Assembly: GCF_000204055.1 (NCBI RefSeq)
Contig: NW_006768802.1
Location: 660,344-724,343, forward strand
Length of the DNA stretch: 64,000 bases
Source: Melampsora larici-populina 98AG31
Taxonomy: Eukaryota > Basidiomycota > Pucciniomycetes > Pucciniales > Melampsoraceae
Direction: 5' to 3'
The number at the start of each line of letters is the position of its first letter. Position 1 is the stretch's first letter. The translations under genes were made by a program, and so were the position numbers. The notes under the pieces were generated by a model. That model was not told where the DNA came from and searched no databases. It saw only the letters and a program-made list of their open reading frames with translations. Positions 903-59,136 of this stretch are shown one piece after another.

Positions 903-3900
903 CTCAGTCACCTTTCTTTTGTGAACTTTTGATGCTCGCAGACAATTTGTGGGGTTTTTTGACTCGTGTTCGGGTAGGATCGGTGCCTCGAGTAATGCTG
1001 CGGCGGCTGCTGTGGGGCCCTGTCTGATCGGAATCATTGGAAGCACCGGCCTTCCAGCCAGAGCCCGGTTAGTTTGATCAGTCGACAATAGGCATTGGGC
1101 GAAATTTTCGCTCTTTTTTCTATTTTTTTGACCGACCAGCGATGCGCCCCACGAAGCAATCCGAAGATTGCAGAAGCGAGTGAGTTTCACAGGTAAAAAG
1201 CCCTGTCGCTTTGCCCGGCTATCTTTTAGGGTCAGATGTTCATTTGCCTCGGTCCGATGACCGCTTGACTCTTGTCTTCGAGGTTTTTGCTCGTCAACTC
1301 CAGCAGTTTGTGACCAATCCAGAGGATCAAGATTTGAATCTTTTGATTTCAATTTCAGCTTGAAATTGGACAAGTCTGTCTAGTTTTGAGTCAATAAAAT
1401 GTTCCAATTTTGACTGCCACGTTAGAAGAAAAAGTCATCGGATGATAGATCACGGCTGCTGGGGGATACCCGGGTAGATTCAGAACGGGGGGCCCCAGGC
1501 AAGGTATGTGTGAAATGTCTGAAAGGTGTCTTTTGTGGCGCGATTAGGGCTTGTGGCTTTTACAGGTCAAGCAAGGATGCTCTACGCCCGATGAAATTTC
1601 AGAAAATTTTTGTAAAGCAAAACAAGAAATATTTTTTTGCTGTGCTTTGGGTGGCTTTGATATTGTGCCAGCCATCCCTACTCAAGCATTCCAAGAAAAC
1701 TGAACTACCTTTGAATTGGTTCCCGCAACCAAAAAACGAAAATTTTCAGAAACCTCGCCCAATGCCTAATAGAGCATGCAACTTTTACCAAGTCTCGACG
1801 TCCTCCAGTCACAATCAAATTGTCGGGGGCCCGAGCCTCCCATGCCTGTTGTTCATTTTTCTGGGTGCAAACCACCAACCGGTACTCAAAGGTACACGTG
1901 TGTATAGATTTTCAAAAACAGCTTTTTTGTTATTTTCAAAACTACACACGGGCTGGCATCATGGTAATTGGTACAAGTTTGCCTTTCACCAACACCAATT
2001 CAAATTGCCAGGTGGGAGACGTGCCCTTCTGTTTGCTGAAAGGGATATGTTCTGCCTTTGGGGCATGAGCCATAGATCCTATAACAGAGAGTCAAAAGGT
2101 GGTGATGGTGGCTGATGACGCATGCACAGGGTCCTCAGAGCTAGATAGGTTTGGACCAAGATATACTTTGTTTTCCCCGCCAAAAAAAACAACAAAACAA
2201 TATGAGAAAAATATGTACATGTGCCCACAAAAAGTTGATGCAACAACAATTGCCAAAAACTTTACAAAACCTGCAAAGCAGGACTCTGAATCAATCTGAG
2301 GTAGTACAATTGAAATTGAGGTGTTTCAAACCCTCATGATGTGCTTCACTTTACATGTGTAATTGGAAGCATTACACAGACGTTCTGTAGGGACAAGTAT
2401 ATGTCCAAATGTCACTTTGAGTACTAAAATTTTATCTTCAGTTGTTGCAAGCTTATAAAAGCAAATCCTCTGGGTTGGATCCATACTTGCTGACACTGCC
2501 ATCAAGTGTGGTGTAGTTTTGATGGGGGCCATACTCAATGTCCAAGATGGCCCCACAGCCCTGATTTTGCATCATGCTATATTATCAATGATTCAACTTT
2601 GGCAAGCCCTTTACTCAATCGACTCAAGCTTTTGGCCCCATGGTCACCTTCTGGCACTTCTTTTACCAGATTGGGCAATTCCAAAATGAATTCATGTAGC
2701 TAGTGAATGAAGAACATCAGTAGTTTCTGATGTTCTTATCATCAAAGGAAACAAGAACAGCTCTGAGATGTGCAAGTAGTCTGTGGATGCTGATTGATGG
2801 GATGACTGTAAATAAAATGCTCTACAAAGGAAGAGACTGGATTTCCATAGCCATGGTCTAAACCACACACTATAAACTTGATGATCTGCTGGTACAAAAA
2901 ATACAGAAAAAAAGCAAAAAAACTTTTGTTTTTCTTGTCCAATCTTGCTAAAAGGGTACTTTTGAAGTGCCATTGGTGTGAGGCTCCCAAAACAGCCTTG
3001 GATGATTCAAAGCTTGAAATACAAGAGACATTGACGTTTTTGGCTCTTGATCAATATCTATGAAAAGTTACAAGAGGCTTTAAGGTTTGTGGCAGCAACT
3101 ATAGTGTTTGACCTGAAGTGATATATGTGAACTCCCAAACTTGATAAAGTCCTTCAAATTTGTTTAGCCTGAAGGTTGCATAGTGACTTACTCTGAATGT
3201 GGTCCCTGGAGTGATAGGTTGTGAGACTTAGTTGTGGAAAATTGGACCTACAGAAGTAACTTTTCTGCAGGGTTTCCAAATTCTATCTGGTGAAGTTGAA
3301 GTACTGCTTCTTCCAAGCAGGACCCTTGAGTCAGATCCCTCTCACCTTGGCCATTCTCAAGATTCCATTGATTCCCAGAGTCCTTATCTTCAATTCTCAA
3401 ACATCCAAAGCCTGGGACAATATAAATCTAAGATACAAAAGGTGCTAAGAGCATCCCCAGCTGTGCCCTAAATCTGCGCTGTATGTAGTGGTTGCACAGA
3501 GAGGTAGGGAGGTGTTCAATGTATAAAACTTGGGTGATACACAGCTGTAATTCCCTACAGTATGGCTGGTAAGAATATTTGGAAATGAATTTCATGGCTT
3601 TGCTGATTATTGAAGTGTGTGTTTGGGGCAGGATCTAATTGCATTGATTGAAATTATGAGGAAAGCAAGGTACAGATGAATTTAGGGAACAAGCAGGACT
3701 GTAACAAATTTGTTCTATTATGGCTTGTACAGAGGGAAGTCTCTTGGCCATGTTTTAGGGCATCAGCTGTGGATTGTTTTGCCCTAAATTTTGGTACAAC
3801 ACAGTTTACGGCACTTGGCTGTGGAACCTGTAATATACTAGCAGGTCCTACATGTCATGTAATGTCCCTTCATGACATCAACAGCGATAAAAATCATGGG

Positions 3901-9899: not shown

Positions 9900-10391
9900 T
9901 CCGATTTGGCTTCAAATAATTACAGTGGGTAAACCCGAGTACGTGTTCCGACCTGCCCTGCAAAATCCAATTTCACCTTTTGGGGCAATGTCGGGGCACT
10001 CAATCTGAATGTTTGAGACTGGCACCCAGACCATTGAAAAGGTATTGCTTTGATGAATCTAGGAATATGGTTTTGGAGACCAAAAATATGATTTTACTCT
10101 TTTAGGGGTTTGGATTTTCGGACCTAGGCCTCAATTAGGTACCTAGCTAGCTACTTAGCAACGCACTAGGCCCATAATTTGATGAATATGGTGGCTCAAG
10201 TGGCAAATAACCTCCAAATTTGCCTTTTTTTGAAAAAAAAACCAAACTTTTGCAACCTAGCACCACCCCTCGACCTTCTTCTCCCGCCAAAAAAAGCAGA
10301 AAAAATGGCAAAAAAATCTCAAAAATTTCGGACCCAAAGCTCTATGCAGGGTGGCTTGGAACACGTACTCGGGTTTACCCACTGTATCAAC
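9900..10391. other. Intergenic, left flank of the MULE element
   Basis: Spacer between the unknown gene and the transposon. The phrase reading about cccgagtacgtgttcc near 9934-9950 recurs in altered form near 10360-10375 (acacgtactcgggtttaccc, inverted), so a small decayed foldback may fill this gap. No gene was seen. Confidence 0.4.
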
Positions 10392-10770
10392 GGAGAGGGG
10401 GAATTTTACACCGCCTCCTTTACACCGAATCATCATGTGTAAAAGCAAGTCAGTGTAAAATTCCAAAAAAGGCGGGGGTTCTTAGATTTTTACACCTCTT
10501 TCGAAATTTTTATTCCGGTGTTAAAAATGACGGTGTAAAATATTCAGTGTAAAAATCATGTGGCCGGTCGTGAGGTTGAATTTTACATTTAAATCTTTAC
10601 ACATGTTACGGCGGTGTAAAAAATCTCGGTGTAAATTTCAAGTCTACACATGCAAAGTACATTTTTGCACGTCTAATCTTTACACCGGGAATACCTGTGT
10701 AAGCAGGCCATGTGCAAAAATCCAATTTTGGCACGCGTGAATTGATTTTTGCACAGAATATGTTACGCAG
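10392..10770. repeat. Left terminal region of the MULE, clustered gtgtaaaa motifs
   Basis: At least a dozen copies of gtgtaaa(a) or its complement tttacac, plus the variants tttttgcac and gtgcaaaaa, occur in about 380 bases in both orientations. Outer bases 10392-10590 match the inverted right end at 17640-17827. Clustered subterminal motifs of this kind are typically transposase-binding sites in DNA transposons; that role is inferred here. Confidence 0.65.
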
Positions 10771-10931
10771 ACTTGAGAAAAAAAACATGCGAGATAAACG
10801 CACAAGACCCCATGTTTTGGGTTTATAGTCGACACACAGGGAGACAGGAAATAAATGGAACTGAGAAAGAACAATAAGCACCACAGGCTAACCACTTAAG
10901 GCATTTGTTTGTTCGTTTGTTTCAAAGAAAA

Positions 10932-13900
10932 CTACTCCCTCAACTTCTTAAGCCGCTCGCGGTTCTCCGCTGCAGCCTGGCGCCGCTTTGCAGCTGCAGC
11001 TTTGCGCTTATCAGCTGTAGCCTTGCGCTTATCCGCTGTCGCCTTTTGTTTAGCCGCTGAAGAGCTGTCATCCGCTTGCGGGGTATCAGCCTTCTTTGTA
11101 GCTTTGCGTGTGCGCTTGCTCCCTGTATGCAGCACAGATGAGGTCAGTGTCCTACAGTACTGCAAAGAACAAAGAGAGTGTAGTGAAGGAAGGCAACTTA
11201 CGTGGTTGGACATCTGTGGAGGCTACTGGTGGTGAAAGGGCCTCCTCTTCAATTGACGGATTCAACTTTGGTATGGCCAACTTGATCTTCAATTTGAGAG
11301 GGTCCAAAGGCATCTTGATTTCCTCAGAAGGTTGATGAGATAGCTCATCAACCTCAATGTTGGCCTCTTCGGTTCCTATGACATCCACATCATCCAGAGG
11401 TACGATATTACCGTAGAGAAGCTTGTCATTTCCGTTCTGAGGTTCTTCACGGTTGAGCCTGTCGTAGAGAACGTCGTCGTTGTCATTTAAGAAATCTTCA
11501 TCTGCATCAGCGTCAATGCAAACTGGCAAAGAAGCCTCTTCTGGCAAGGTTGTGGTCAAAACGGCGTCGTCAGTTTCTTCAAGAGAAGGAAGGCCTCCTC
11601 CGAAAGGCATCGTGCTGGTAGGCATTGTGAAAGGTATTGAGAGGTGTCGGTCTGGAAACTTCTTCATCATGTCCAGAAGGGCATGTTTGATCTTGACAGT
11701 TTCCGCTTCAAAAGGGACCCGCGTGTAACACGTCCAGCTGGTGTTAGCAATACAACCAGAAAGGCTGTCTACGTCGCGGGATATGAGCTGGGAAAACCCT
11801 CCATTCTTGAGCTCGTCATAATGCCATACGCTCAAGACACCTTCTACTGATCTCACCACTTGGCACCAATAATGGTTCCCACCCCAGAAACCACGGGTGA
11901 CCATCTGATATTTGGCTTCACCTAATTCTAGACGCGCTGGCCAGTTGGTGTCTCCCATGTAACGTCCTCGTTCCTTGGAATCTAAGGCCATGACGTTGTC
12001 CATGAGAAAATAGAGATGCAACGGTAAGGATGTATCCTCAATCTTCATACGTTGATCATACAATGTCGGGTCCTCTTCCTCGTGGCCTTTTTCCTTGATT
12101 GGATGACATCCACGGCATACAAGCCCGGGTTCGGTTAGGACACCTTCAGAGAATAAATCTTGTAGCAAAATGTCCAGTTGTCCATAAGCAACGCCAGACT
12201 CCCTGAACATTGATGGGAAAAGCCGGAAACCGCCTAAAGATCTGGTTGTAGCTCGGTTGTGTTTGTCGTTGCGATGACATATTGATGTCTTAGTCACGTT
12301 GATAGCAAAAAGAGGCCTTGTGTGCGGGTGGTCTACTATCATGTCCATGAAACCATCGGCAGAACAAAACTTGTCGGACGTGTATGACTCGGGTTTGAGA
12401 GCTTGGATGGCCTTGTGAATAATGTTCTGACTGCGTTTCAATAAACTCCCGAGGTGTTTGCCTTCATTCAACTCGCCATCGCAACGTCCGGTGAAATGTC
12501 GAATGATGATCGTGGGCAAAGATGTCCCATTGACGTGCGTGTGGTCACTCCAAAGTGGACCCCACAGAGCGTAGAGGGATTCCAGCGTGGCAGTCTGCCA
12601 GCATCGATTGAGGGTGCCAATGGTGGTGCCTGACGTATAAGACTTGTAGGTTGTCAAAGCACTTCGATTGATGTTCAAAGAACCTTGAGGACGTCCTGGA
12701 CCTTTCTTCTTGGAGGGTTTGCCGGATTTAGGATCAGCACCGTCAAGTAGTTCTTTGGTGGTGTCCGGTGCACGGCCGTCGTTTGCAACGTATCGGCGTT
12801 TGGTGGGTTTGGCCATGCCTAAAGACGCAACGATGTCTTGCCAATTTTGATTGCTGGAACTGTAAGTCACCGAGATACCTTTGCATCTGGCCTCGTAGTC
12901 GCGCTCTAGACTCAAAACAAATGCAAATAGTTGAATCATCCCGGCGATGATCCCACACTTGCCATCACTAACATCATCATTTGACGAAATGATTCAATGT
13001 TAGACTCCTTACGATTAAATGGAAAAAGCTTTGATAAATAACTACCAGAGCATGTAGTAGACCCGGTGTAAGGATTCTTGGGCATTGGTCGTCTTCGGTA
13101 AATCAGCGCGCCGGCGTGGTTGAGCTTGATCTTCGTCATCTGATTCTTCTTCAGGTAATGGCGGGTCATCTTCAGGAATCCTCTTCCGCGCCTGGAAGAG
13201 CATGGCTTGGACATCCGCCGCATACCACCAGTCGATCCATTTTTTCGCCAAAGGAAATAATCTTCGCAAATCTTTGAATCTTTGTTCAAGATTTGGACGT
13301 CCAGGTTCATCCGGGAGAAGAAGCTCTCGGCACAGTGTCTTCCAAGTACCCTGCGTGTCAAAGGAACATGTAACACGTATATTGATTAGATGAATTAAAT
13401 CAAAACAATGTGACAGTTAATCAAAGTCCAAAGATTGAGAACTGACCACCATATTAACCTTCACTATTTTGTGATTTTTCGATATGCGAGTGACCGCCTG
13501 TTGATAATGCTGTTCGCAGCCGTGCAACTTAGAAAAGGCGATTTTACGATCATGTACCTTGAATACCTCCATGTATGCATCTATGAATCCGTTTTTCTGA
13601 GCTGCAGAAAAATCAACAACCTGTTCGACCAGGCGTCTCTTTTCCCTGTCTGACAAGTCAGTCTTCTGGATTTGTTTGAAGAGAGTGGCGAAATGGGTTT
13701 TGTAGTGTAAGGTAGACAGTCCTCCGAGCCACGACAGTAGGATCGGTATCCAGCGCTGGAGCTTCTCGTTGTACATCGACGTGGTTAATAGGTAACCGTT
13801 AAGGAAGAATTTGTATGTGACATCGGAGAGGAGGCCGCCAGAGTAGGCCTCCCCGTCTTCTTGTTTGAGTACTAGCATGTCGGCCATCCACTTCGTTTGG

Positions 13901-15349
13901 AAGGTAAAATGGTCATCGTCGTCCATTGCAACCGACACAATTTTCATTCCTTTCCTGTTGGAGGAAAACAGGAAAAGAAGGCAAGTTAGCCACGTCAAAA
14001 GGATGAAGGGATTGGAATACGAAATAATACAAAAATATGAAAGACTGGGAGTACGAAATAAAATCATCAATACTGACCTGGACCAATGTTTGATCTGTGT
14101 ATACCACCTGTCACCCCCTTCCTTGTCATTCTTATCGTCCATCAACCCGTGTTTGGCGAGAATTTCACGGCGCAAATAGCCGAGGCGGTCGGTATGTCCA
14201 AAAGATGAATGGATATCTGTTATTGAAGCAATCGGTTGGGTTCCAAGTCGGGCACGTCCAACCTTTCAGAGAGCAAACAGCAAGAGTGAGTATGTGCTTC
14301 ATGTTCTTCTGTGAACATAAGAGGATATTATTACATACCTTCATACCAAGTGGTCCCAGTTTCGGATCATTCAACACAGCCTCTTCCAGCTTTTCCTTCG
14401 CAAGAGGATCAGCCTTTTTGGGGTCAGGCCATCGGTGGGTGTGTTGTCCTTGGTGTCGCAACAAACACCATTTTTCGACCGTGTCCTCGTCAACGCGACA
14501 GCGGGCATAACACGCCAAGTGATTCACAAGGCCAGGACATCCAGAGACTGTGCAATTGGGAAACCTACCCAATAACCAAAGGGATCAATTTAGTTATTTG
14601 TCATATGATGATAAGTTTGAGATGACGTACTTTGAGAGATATTTCTCTATTGCCTTGTGGCCGGTGGGAGGCGATCCCGCCAGTTGGCAGCCTTTCTCAG
14701 AGCAAATTAAAATCCCAAGGCAGTAATAACGTCTAATAGTCCACTTGTTGTTGTGTTCAGTCCGCATCGTGTGAGTCCACGCAATCGTCGCAATCCCCTT
14801 TTTAAAGTTAGTGATTTGATCCTCGGCATTCTTCACAAACATTGTTTCCCCGTTAGGATATATGGGATATCCCTGTTCGTCGAGCTCACTGCCTTTGTCA
14901 ATCCATGTGGCGAACTTCCGTTTGTTGAGGGGAAGCTGCAATTGCCGGGTTTTGACTGGGCCAACGTCTTCATTGTCAGTAGTTTCACTAACATGAGATT
15001 GAGATATGTTGTCGACGTCTTTGAAAACATTTTGGGTCTTGGTGACTAGTTCAGATTGGGCTGACATTGTGATTACGCTTGGAGATTTATGATATCGACT
15101 ACGACTAGATTTTAATGGAGTAGTTTCTAAGGAACTTGATTGTAAGGGATCCAAAGAAGATTCTGAGCAGTCTGAAGTCGAAATAATGGTAAATGGAGAG
15201 CTAGGAGTGGTAGTGAACAGATTTTCCAAAGTGAGATCGGGAATAGCTTCTGAGGTATGATGCGAAGACGCATATGTGCACAAGTCCTCTTCTCCCTCTC
15301 CCGTATTTTCCAAGGGAGCGGCCGATGAAATGGAGAATGTCTGCCCCAT
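10932..15349 (-). CDS. Intact MULE transposase with GCM1/WRKY zinc finger, DDE domain and C-terminal peptidase-like domain
   Basis: Seven exons on the minus strand (15349-14631, 14564-14339, 14262-14078, 13954-13459, 13350-13046, 12967-11202, 11122-10932) join in frame into 1295 residues without a stop. Residues about 190-290 form a Cys/His finger (ICSEKGC, CTVSGC, CYARC) ending RHQGQHTHRWP, the GCM1/WRKY class known from MULE transposases. The DDE core follows: LLSDVTYKFF (Asp about 421), a second Asp about 491, LHGCEQHYQQAVTRI, and TTNAQESLHRVYYM with Glu about 634. After an AT-hook-like KKKGPGRPQGS comes a region with NRCWQTATLESLYAL (Cys about 766), CRGC, and GGNHYWCQVVR...WHYDELKNGG (His about 1009, Asp about 1028), a pattern like the C19 peptidase fold. 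The tail is Lys/Ala-rich coiled coil. It would cut and move the element in the nucleus. The family is strongly supported; the peptidase reading is inference. Confidence 0.9.
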
Positions 15350-15849
15350 GGTGGAAGTGATAGAAACCAAGTTGAAAGTACGAAAGCCTTAATTTGAAAG
15401 TACGAAAGCGTCAAGGGATGCTTTAAATGTAACCAATAGGAAAGGACGAAAGCGTCATCAATAAATGATTCGAGTCAAGATCAAAAGAGAAGGAACTAAA
15501 GGTTGTCAAAACCGAGAAACAGTTGTCAACAAAAGCGAGAAGTCTTTGAAATCTTCGTCGTGCAATCCGAAAGTGGTTGGAATTCATAGTTCCGATCCGG
15601 AATGATTCTGTTCATATGATCAGAACCGTAATGATCAGAACCGTAATCATATCACGAGGGCCTCCACTCCATGGATATGTGGATATGTGGGAATGTGGGA
15701 ATGGTGAAAGGGCGGCAGTTAATTTTTTTTGAAAGGCTTTTGCATGCCTTTGATACCATGCCAAACATCAGGTATATACGTCTGATGTTTGGGTTGCGTG
15801 GTATCCTTCAGGCATTCCATCATCTGGAGTATGTGCGTCGAAGTGTCGG
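15350..15849. other. MULE internal spacer upstream of the transposase, with a hairpin
   Basis: Probable promoter region of the transposase. Bases about 15736-15815 form an imperfect hairpin: gataccatgccaaacatcag pairs with ctgatgtttgg..gtggtatc around a short loop. Bases 15600-15650 hold a tandem duplication of atgatcagaaccgta. No other gene was seen. Confidence 0.5.
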
Positions 15850-16035
15850 TCGGATGCGGTGTAAAACTTCGGTGTAAAATTGAAGGTGAGCTCAGCAGAA
15901 TGGGATTTTTGCACCGACCAGATCTTACACATGGCAATTTGGTGTAGCCGGATCGGTGTAAAAATACACTTCGGGTCGGGGCCCGTGATTATTACACTGA
16001 CTATTTTTACACAGCCGTGCCATGTGTATTACCTT
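15850..16035. repeat. Second MULE terminal-type block with gtgtaaaa motifs
   Basis: Carries the same gtgtaaaa / tttttgcac motif set as the element ends. Read inverted, its cagtgtaataatca..ggcccc segment aligns with left-end bases near 10545-10590. It may be the inner part of the right terminal repeat, separated from the outer part (17640-17827) by an insertion. Confidence 0.5.
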
Positions 16036-17645
16036 TTCTAAAATGAATGGCACCCCTGGCCCGAAGAAAAAATATTTTTCAGCGCCGCAGTCTCCGCAGC
16101 CGGTGCAGTGGACTGTGACAGACAGATGCATTCAGATCAGCTGGCTGACGCGGCCTGCTGAGCACTGCTATTGGCAACCCCTCACCGAACGTTTTCTTTG
16201 TGAATCATTAGGGTTTTAATACCAATATGTACCAGTCGGTTTATAAGAAAGATTACCAGCAAAAATAAACGATCGACCATACCCATTCCAAAGAAGAGAT
16301 GAATCAGAAGTAAGTCATCTTTAACTTGAAATTCATGTTTTTTTCAATTTTGGATCGATTCATCATAATTTCTTCTTTGGGTATTTCCTTTTTAGACCTT
16401 ATTGACAAGTGGATCTTCAAAAGATTGGGTGAAAATCTCGACCTACACCAAAAGATTGGAATTTTATACCTCAACATAAAAGTAATTCCTGTGAAGAAGG
16501 AAATGGATAAAGTACACAACCAAATTCATCAGTCAAATCACTTTGTTTTCAATGTTTATTTTGTTTTCTTGAAGAGTTTGAGTTTTTTTGCAATTTAAAT
16601 TGGTTTTCACATTTTCATGATGATCATTTTGTTTGATCAAGAGTGTTATGAATTTCTTTCAAGATTGGTATTCAAGTAAAGCGCGAAAGCAGGTTTCTTC
16701 TTTTGCACACCATTCTTTCATTCAACTTATTTTAATCTTACATCAACTCTGAATTTCTTCAGATCATTATGAAGATTTTCAAAGTAAAGCCAGAAAAATG
16801 ATGTGATTAATCCAAGGTTTTTATCCTGTGTTTTTCTTTGTTATTCCGGTGTGTTCTTTTTGAACCAGAATCAATAAAACAGATAGGAATTGATATAATA
16901 ACAATAAAAAGATAGACAAGAGAAAGAGAAAAGTTACAACCATAATATGTATGCATGAAGAATCTGTCAGTAAATTAAAATCAAAGGATTTTGATTCAAC
17001 AAATAAGAGTTCTTTGAAATGAATGAAGAAAGAACGAAGAAGACAAAAGAGAATTTCAAAGATGTCTTCGATTATTACTACCCAAATTAAATTTCTTTGG
17101 ATTGAGGATTCTTGACGAGTAGCATAAGCTTAATCCGAAATATCATCAGCTAATCGATGAGACGAATGAATCCGATCCCAATCCCCTAAATGATGATCAT
17201 CGTCTGATTTGTTTTGTTTGACAACATTGCATCTCATGTCGTCAACCCCAGAGAGGAAGTCCCGCTTGATCTACATGGTCAAAAAAAGAAGACAAAATCA
17301 AAATCAAAGTCAAAGAAAAGAAAAAGAAAAAAGGTCAAAAATCAACATGAAATAGATGTGATAGAAAGTTGATAGGATGACATACGTGTGATCGATGAAG
17401 CGATTAGTTTGAGGCGTCAGGGAAAATGTTGAGGAGGTGGGTGTTGAATGCCCATCGCAGATGAGTAAACGTTCGGTGAGGGGTTGCCAATAGCAGTGCT
17501 CAGCAGGCCGCGTCAGCCAGCTGATCTGAATGCATCTGTCTGTCACAGTCCACTGCACCGGCTGCGGGGACTGCAGCGCTGAAAAATATTTTTTCTTTGG
17601 GCCAGGGGTGCCATTCATTTTAGAAAAGGTAATAATAAATTCTGT
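16022..17645. mobile_element. Nested non-autonomous element with about 185 bp inverted repeats
   Basis: Bases about 16028-16195 and 17465-17637 are near-identical inverted repeats (terminal attaccttttctaaaatg on each side, then a G/C-rich stretch containing gctgacgcggcctgctga). Only a few differences were seen by eye, so the two arms are young or gene-converted. The 1.27 kb between them is AT-rich, and no complete open frame was recognised. A short splice-like exon reading KRDFLSGVDDM...LGDWDRIHSSHR lies on the minus strand near 17275-17125 and could be a captured host gene fragment; this is weak. Its position between two pieces of MULE terminal sequence suggests insertion into the MULE right end. 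No clean target duplication was found. Confidence 0.55.
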
Positions 17646-17827
17646 GTAAAATTCAATCTTGCCACCGGCCACAAGAATTTTACACTGTTTTTTCAACACA
17701 GACAAAAAAAAATCGAAAGAGGTGTAAAATTCTAAGAACCCGACCACCTTTTGGAATTTTACACCGACTCGGTTTTACACAGAATGATCCGGTGTAAACG
17801 AGTCTGTGTAAAAATCACCTACCCCAT
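17640..17827. repeat. Right terminal region of the MULE
   Basis: The inverted counterpart of 10392-10590, by eye roughly three-quarters identical. Ends next to tatcaac at 17828-17834, which matches the sequence just left of the element. Confidence 0.6.
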
Positions 17828-57715: not shown

Positions 57716-59136
57716 ATGCCCGCTCAACTTTCCAAATCCAAACTCGCGCTCCTATCATTCATCTTGCTCGCATCATTTCTTCGAACTCACGCTGGCGTAT
57801 GCCGAAAGAAATCTAACACGAAATTAACCTTGGCCGCGTATTACCCCGTAAGTTGAAACCTCACACTTGATCTCATATATGCGCATGTGACTGACATTGA
57901 GTTTTTTTTACAGAGTTACAATTCCGATCTTTTACCAGTGGGAAAGATTCCTTGGGAAGATTACACTCACCTTGATTATTTCGTTATAAAAAGCCCTTCT
58001 AGCCCTGAAGCTGAATTAGAAATCGAAGATGAAGAAAACTTGAAAGAATTCGTTAAAGCCGGAAAATCTCACAATGTCACCATCTCACTTACCCTTGGTG
58101 GTTGGACTGGCAGTGTTTACTTTAGTTCATTGGTCTCTAGTGATTCTAATCGAAAATCGTTTGCTAAGAATATTGCTAAGACGATCAAGAAGTATGGATT
58201 TGATGGAATCGATCTTGATTGGGAATATCCAAATGTACCAGGTCAAGATGGAAATCAAATCTCGAAAGATGATTCGGCCAACTTTTTAAAATTCCTTCAA
58301 GTTTTAAGAATTGAACTCGGTCCTCAATCTCGTATCTCTGCAGCTGTTTCAGTTCATGGTTTTATGGGTTCAGATGGTGAATATTTAAAAGATCATAAAT
58401 CATACGCAAAAGTATTGGATTTTATTACTATCATGGCTTACGATCTCTATGGTCCCTCTAGTACGCCTGTGGTAGGTCCAAACGCACCTCTCTTCGATAC
58501 TTGCAATGATCCTGGTATGAAGTATTCAGTCGATCAAGCCATTCAAACTTGGACTTCAACCGGTTTTCCAGCTTCTCAAATCCTTTTAGGAATCCCAAGT
58601 TATGGTTATCAATATCAACTTGAGACTTCAAAGTTAAATGTCACTCATTTTTCTGACAAAACTGATCAAACTAGTTTATTCTTTGGTTCTATTGACCAAT
58701 CTAAACAGGGAAAAGGAGCCAAGAATGGACAACAAACCCCTACAAGCTGTGGAAGCCCTACTGATGATGGTAATTTTGTTTTTAAAGACTTGATGACTTG
58801 TGGATTCCTTTCTTCAGATGGTACGACTGGTCTTAATGGCTTCGAAAGACACTATGATAATTGCACACATACCGTAAGTTTTATTTCTCTCATTTCTTTT
58901 CTCTCTTTGATCAATGCAGAATACTAACTCTTATTTTTGTTTTCGAAACTTTTTAGCCACTTCTCTTCAATCCAACCAGTAAGCTTTTGATTGCATATGA
59001 TGATCAAGACTCATTAGCTGAAAAAACAAAATTTGCGAAATCTAAAGGATTAGCTGGAATAAATATCTTTGATGCTGCTGGTGACACTCAATCTAAATTA
59101 TTATTAAAATCTATCAAAAAAGCCTTATACTCTTAA
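57716..59136 (+). CDS. Secreted GH18 chitinase
   Basis: Glycoside hydrolase family 18 enzyme expected to cleave chitin by substrate-assisted catalysis outside the cell or in the wall. Three exons, 57716-57847, 57914-58873 and 58957-59136, give 423 residues. Residues 1-27 form a signal peptide (SKLALLSFILLASFLRTHAG). LAAYYPSYNS opens the barrel; SLTLGGWTGSVYFSSL is the substrate-binding strand; FDGIDLDWEYP carries the DxxDxDxE motif with catalytic Glu148. VLDFITIMAYDLYGP and GIPSYGYQYQL follow, and AGINIFDAAGD closes the barrel, where many chitinases have Trp in this last motif. No carbohydrate-binding module or GPI anchor was seen. It could serve wall remodelling or nutrition. Adjacent, on the same strand, to the amylase gene. 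Confidence 0.95.

Follow-up and report, generated by a model that had tools for sequence, protein, structure and literature searches.

Here, a 64,000-nucleotide stretch of Melampsora larici-populina 98AG31 DNA (contig NW_006768802.1, positions 660,344 to 724,343; hereafter the window) is found to carry a copy of a MuDRF-type DNA transposon of the Mutator superfamily, whose transposase ends in a domain predicted to fold as a ubiquitin-specific peptidase (USP, peptidase family C19). Computation shows that the protein opens with a region resembling GCM, continues with a DDE core that includes a GC-x2-H motif, and has on its C-terminal side a domain of USP fold, in which a Cys/His/Asp-or-Asn triad is accompanied by a Cys3-His finger. 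The feature under study is probably the C-terminal part of this transposase, bearing an active USP isopeptidase that acts at the element's ends. Because the catalytic residues are kept in most of the copies examined, the data suggest that the transposon family makes use of cellular protein tagging for its movement or survival.

The peptidase domain and its active site

A preliminary description of this DNA had noted a Cys box, a CRGC pair, a GGNHYWCQVVR box and a WHYDELKNGG box whose order and spacing resembled those of C19 deubiquitinases, downstream of a complete DDE domain. All four are located, as noted, in the minus-strand open reading frame 11152-12993 (613 codons between stops), and the DDE motifs SDVT, VVDF, GC-x2-H and NAQES do lie upstream of the Cys box, between 13824 and 13075. 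The USP domain is carried on one contiguous exon; its parts, with conservation among genomic copies of the family, are as follows.

11710..12663, minus strand: USP (peptidase C19) domain, model residues 103-420, from fold prediction
12601..12603, minus strand: codon of the predicted catalytic Cys131, in NRCWQTATLESLY; 44/44 copies
12259..12279, minus strand: finger residues Cys239 (12277-12279) and His245 (12259-12261), a C-x5-H pair upstream of CRGC; 43/44 copies each
12106..12117, minus strand: finger CRGC, with Cys293 (12115-12117) and Cys296 (12106-12108); 42/44 and 43/44 copies
11872..11874, minus strand: codon of the predicted catalytic His374, in GGNHYWCQVVR; 44/44 copies
11815..11817, minus strand: codon of the predicted third catalytic residue Asp393, in WHYDELKNGG; Asp in 36 and Asn in 8 of 44 copies

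A fold search with the predicted structure returned a USP fold, and a second, full-length model agrees, its matches covering the USP part only. All of the matches listed were USP-type, including the Pan2 pseudo-hydrolase, SAGA deubiquitinase chains and USP1 with FANCD2; none was an OTU fold, which is not an exclusion of OTU. C19 enzymes use Asp or Asn at the third catalytic site, and their finger usually has four Cys, unlike the putative zinc-binding Cys3-His set predicted from sequence here and kept in 42-43 of the 44 copies. An Ulp1-type (C48) peptidase was rejected, as the triad of that family runs His-Asp-Cys, against Cys-His-Asp in this protein.

Similarity of fold does not reveal the substrate. 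The active USP could be aimed at SUMO or another ubiquitin-like protein (compare USPL1 and USP18), a variant of the isopeptidase reading whose probability overlaps with it and which is judged unlikely. USPL1 bound to SUMO (7zju_C) has the highest target-normalised TM-score, 0.71, among the 50 matches listed, and the peptidase of Ulp1-bearing Mutator-like elements (MULEs) belongs to the SUMO-protease family (PMC6117577). However, USPL1 is a short chain, which inflates its TM-score, and by Z-score ubiquitin USPs rank above it, with many matches tied.

The genomic sample comprises 44 distinct copies (50 loci minus 6 repeats, from 86 match rows, in which some copies are split over more than one row), in which L001-L030 are the top-scoring copies, 13 with in-frame stops. 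Cys131 and His374 are the sole invariant Cys and His among the 9 Cys and 16 His of a core whose mean column identity is 0.50; judged from this alignment, their invariance exceeds chance. In the database set, the USP profile is matched by 71 of 126 proteins, 48 of them over nearly its full length, and 36 of the 48 have a complete C-H-D or C-H-N triad. An alignment of 15 proteins has His and Asp/Asn in 15/15 and Cys in 13/15, the exceptions being one gap and an Arg in P0037, a predicted protein that departs from the family around this residue. The structure prediction and the alignment of relatives had both been proposed as checks in the preliminary description; because a USP fold was predicted by two models and the Cys/His pair was kept, Puccinia included, with few exceptions (P0052, P0037, gaps), its C19-like reading is supported. 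The roles that it put forward for the domain, namely shielding of the transposase or of host factors, remodelling of chromatin and removal of SUMO, are conjectural.

Several observations weigh against an active peptidase. The remaining genomic copies, L031-L044, were chosen mainly for open frames, which tilts the sample towards intact copies. Ten of the 48 near-full-length database proteins have a gap at one triad position, in P0052 the catalytic Cys is replaced by Ala, and the third residue of P0034 is Glu. C19 enzymes usually have Asn five residues ahead of the catalytic Cys; the residue there is Gly. Neither Pfam nor the PDB gave a sequence match for the window protein itself, with nothing relevant returned by the PDB sequence searches, and Pfam UCH touched only 2 of 29 family members, one of them over the cut-off. 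The Gly, the P0052 and P0034 substitutions and the Pan2 match would suit a pseudo-enzyme, in which the USP fold serves, as in Pan2, as a protein-binding scaffold, for example for ubiquitin or a transposase partner. Such a scaffold is distinctly improbable: in the 44 copies the only invariant Cys and His of the core are the catalytic pair, and the third site is strictly Asp or Asn.

Linkage, selection and shared descent

The genome holds 133 matches to the DDE exon, of which the 94 covering at least 142 of its 164 residues were taken. For at least 83 of the 94, a USP match follows on the same strand 383-2580 bp downstream (median 453); the linkage limit was 3 kb, so that C16:69350, with its USP about 3.4 kb off, was scored as without, and the lists of USP places are lower bounds. 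In-frame stops were present in 10 of the 11 DDE copies without a USP versus 16 of the 83 with one.

The ratio of nonsynonymous to synonymous change (dN/dS) in the USP core was finite for 17 of 34 pairs of more than 60% identity, 16 of these ratios lying in the range 0.07-0.21 and the last, from a pair of 99% identity, reaching 0.59; the figures are rough because many dS values exceed 1. In the comparisons divergent enough to be useful for the tail, L001 and L002 each against L005, the core gave 0.18 and 0.16, whereas the tail gave 0.82 and 0.80. On these ratios the USP part is held by selection. Furthermore, separate trees built for the DDE part and for the USP part, from 22 proteins (12 Melampsora, 10 Puccinia), have 15 of 19 splits in common; the split between the genera is found in both, with support 0.99 and 0.98, and no conflict occurs at support of 0.9 or more. 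Most simply, fusion of the USP would predate the split of Melampsora and Puccinia, with DDE and USP descending together from then on, although the joined unit may instead have passed between the two genera by later transfer. Homologues with a named organism came from Melampsora and Puccinia only, among the matches listed (17 of 137 were unlisted in one search, some carry no organism, and sensitivity was limited), which is not proof of absence outside rusts.

These data also bear on the idea that the USP is a passenger, a captured piece of a host USP gene with no role for the transposon. Plant MULEs do transduplicate Ulp-like genes (PMC6117577), but retention of the USP in 83 of 94 copies, a core dN/dS well below that of the tail and congruent trees across two genera make a passenger already hard to hold and very improbable. 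Chance likeness of the motifs without C19 homology, which would fit the lack of a Pfam or PDB sequence match, deserves next to no credence, as the predicted folds contradict it, short of an error in both models.

Known systems and proposed mechanism

MuDRF elements, with a single transposase holding GCM and DDE domains and with 9-bp duplications, have been described from Puccinia, M. larici-populina and other Basidiomycota (Cantu et al. 2011, PMC3164196), and a GCM-motif protein is named in PMC4164029. The present element resembles MuDRF in its superfamily, its 9-bp duplication and its single protein with a DDE part and, putatively, a GCM part; it differs from MuDRF as described there, Repbase entries standing outside the comparison, in ending with a USP. 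The words ubiquitin, protease, peptidase and USP do not occur in the available text of PMC3164196, and none of the open-licence papers found, judged mostly by title and start of abstract, was recognised as reporting a MuDRF or other MULE that bears a USP.

Ulp1 MULEs such as Kaonashi and VANDAL are likewise Mutator-type transposons coding for a protease for ubiquitin-like proteins, but theirs is a C48 peptidase, found in plants, hydra and lancelet, whereas the element here has a C19 domain on a GCM-type transposase in fungi (PMC6117577, PMC2836005). Ginger1 also has such a protease at the C-terminus of a DDE transposase, but belongs to a different superfamily and carries OTU or Ulp1 peptidases (Bao et al. 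2010, PMC2836005), and OTU domains are known on Helitrons too (PMC2836005, PMC6117577). A parallel in peptidase family is a Trichomonas vaginalis protein known by mention only, XP_001314237.1 (transposase_11 plus Peptidase C19; PMC2836005), a single protist protein with another transposase type, whereas the family here is Mutator-type and spans two genera of rusts. Fusions of this general kind are thus already known, and what we therefore call new is a C19 USP on a Mutator-type GCM transposase family in rusts.

In the proposed mechanism, the USP domain would be an active cysteine isopeptidase which the DNA-binding part of the transposase would tether to the transposon ends, there to strip ubiquitin, SUMO or another ubiquitin-like protein from its targets. 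It might act on its own transposase, on histones around the insertion, SAGA deubiquitinase chains being among the fold matches, or on repair proteins, USP1 with FANCD2 being another such match. Shielding of the transposase from ubiquitin-dependent removal is ranked first, only because the domain would act most easily on its own chain, and deubiquitination of histones or repair factors comes next; the data do not separate them. Bao et al. 2010 (PMC2836005) suggested that, where transposases bear Ulp1 or OTU domains, these work on repair factors. The case is evenly balanced for the fuller proposition that in a widespread cut-and-paste family the domain is an integral, catalytically active transpososome deubiquitinase or deSUMOylase, kept since before the Melampsora/Puccinia split, which clears ubiquitin or ubiquitin-like marks at the ends against degradation or silencing, and that such transposon USPs outnumber host USP genes while being nearly invisible to domain annotation.

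Proteases of this kind have been joined repeatedly to unrelated transposases (Ulp1, OTU and here C19), which hints at a general control of transposition by ubiquitin or SUMO, a generality proposed, untried, by Bao et al. 2010 (PMC2836005). The conserved triad and the single-exon USP make the control idea directly testable by a Cys-to-Ala change.

The transposon copy, its annotation and its surroundings

The preliminary description placed the feature at 10932..13046. These bounds hold for the C-terminal part, but the whole gene reaches about 15349 and the transposon spans 10392-17825, as follows.

10392..17825, minus strand (that of the gene): MuDRF-type (Mutator superfamily) DNA transposon copy, its ends placed by homology with L045, a sister copy; the 5' end houses a nested element
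10392..10634: terminal inverted repeat on the 3' side, bearing TTTACAC/GTGTAAA subrepeats
10932..15349, minus strand: transposase gene of several exons; boundaries by homology, approximate
10932..11069, minus strand: basic C-terminal tail on its own exon, up to the stop codon
12688..12696, minus strand: GRP motif between DDE core and USP domain, invariant in a 29-member alignment
13075..13077, minus strand: third acidic residue of the DDE core (NAQES)
13450..13955, minus strand: first exon of the DDE core, with D at 13822-13824, D at 13612-13614 and GC-x2-H with its Cys at 13516-13518
14336..14944, minus strand: GCM-like zinc-finger region in two exon pieces, located by tblastn with P0012, P0014 and P0037; Pfam GCM under cut-off
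16027..17634: nested 1.6-kb element with 171-bp inverted repeats (98%), missing from L045
17633..17825: terminal inverted repeat on the 5' side, which the nested insertion splits off from the remaining transposon

L045 and the window copy are 97.2% identical over 5644 columns, which puts the element's ends near 10392 and 17825. A perfect 9-bp target site duplication, ATAGTTTAT, surrounds L045; in the window copy, flanks set at the same ends agree at 7 of 9 positions (two copies compared). The terminal inverted repeats are about 240 bp long and 77% mutually alike, and the TTTACAC/GTGTAAA subrepeats occur in them. The nested element has an apparent TA duplication. Adjoining the transposon's left end is a 466-bp palindromic stretch (9921-10386) like a miniature inverted-repeat transposable element, with 42-nt arms (90%).

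The gene starts at about 15349, with an MGQ shared with P0012, P0014 and P0037, and ends at 10932. It is open wherever relatives align; its stops are confined to stretches that align to gaps, and these are read as introns. The protein search returned P0001 from M. larici-populina at 98% identity, which marks the window as poplar rust. From N- to C-terminus the predicted order is GCM-like finger, DDE core, GRP motif (resembling an AT-hook in sequence), USP domain, low-complexity stretch and basic tail. The DDE residues D, D and E are present in 15/15 aligned relatives, and the C and H of GC-x2-H in 14/15. Pfam GCM scored 14.4 bits on the window protein and 17.4 on the best relative, against a cut-off of 25, and one Cys column of the region is Thr or Ile in four Puccinia rows of the relatives' alignment. 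No peptidase or MULE match was returned by Pfam for five window open reading frames and ten relatives, nor for further sets of 9 and 8 relatives. A distant relative (L042:4484-6682) has a CCHC-knuckle-like motif in the tail after the USP, and at 2942-3736 of that locus the USP exon recurs as an incomplete second copy.

Pfam UCH has 34 matches in the genome, of which only C64:400576 overlaps a known place of the transposase family. As at least 83 DDE copies are followed by a USP, this single overlap reveals an annotation gap. The UCH match at C32:910007 was rejected as a family member, being PAN2-like (UCH_1, 294.7 bits). Meanwhile, many relatives carry the UniRef name 'GCM domain-', and many of the rust genes with MELLADRAFT, PGTG, PTTG and PSTG names that are so called belong to the transposase family. 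Transposases may therefore be among the GCM or USP genes counted in rusts, and the number of GCM transcription factors there may be overestimated.

Elsewhere in the window, the open frame 57857-58927 carries a DGIDLDWEYP motif and resembles a GH18 chitinase.
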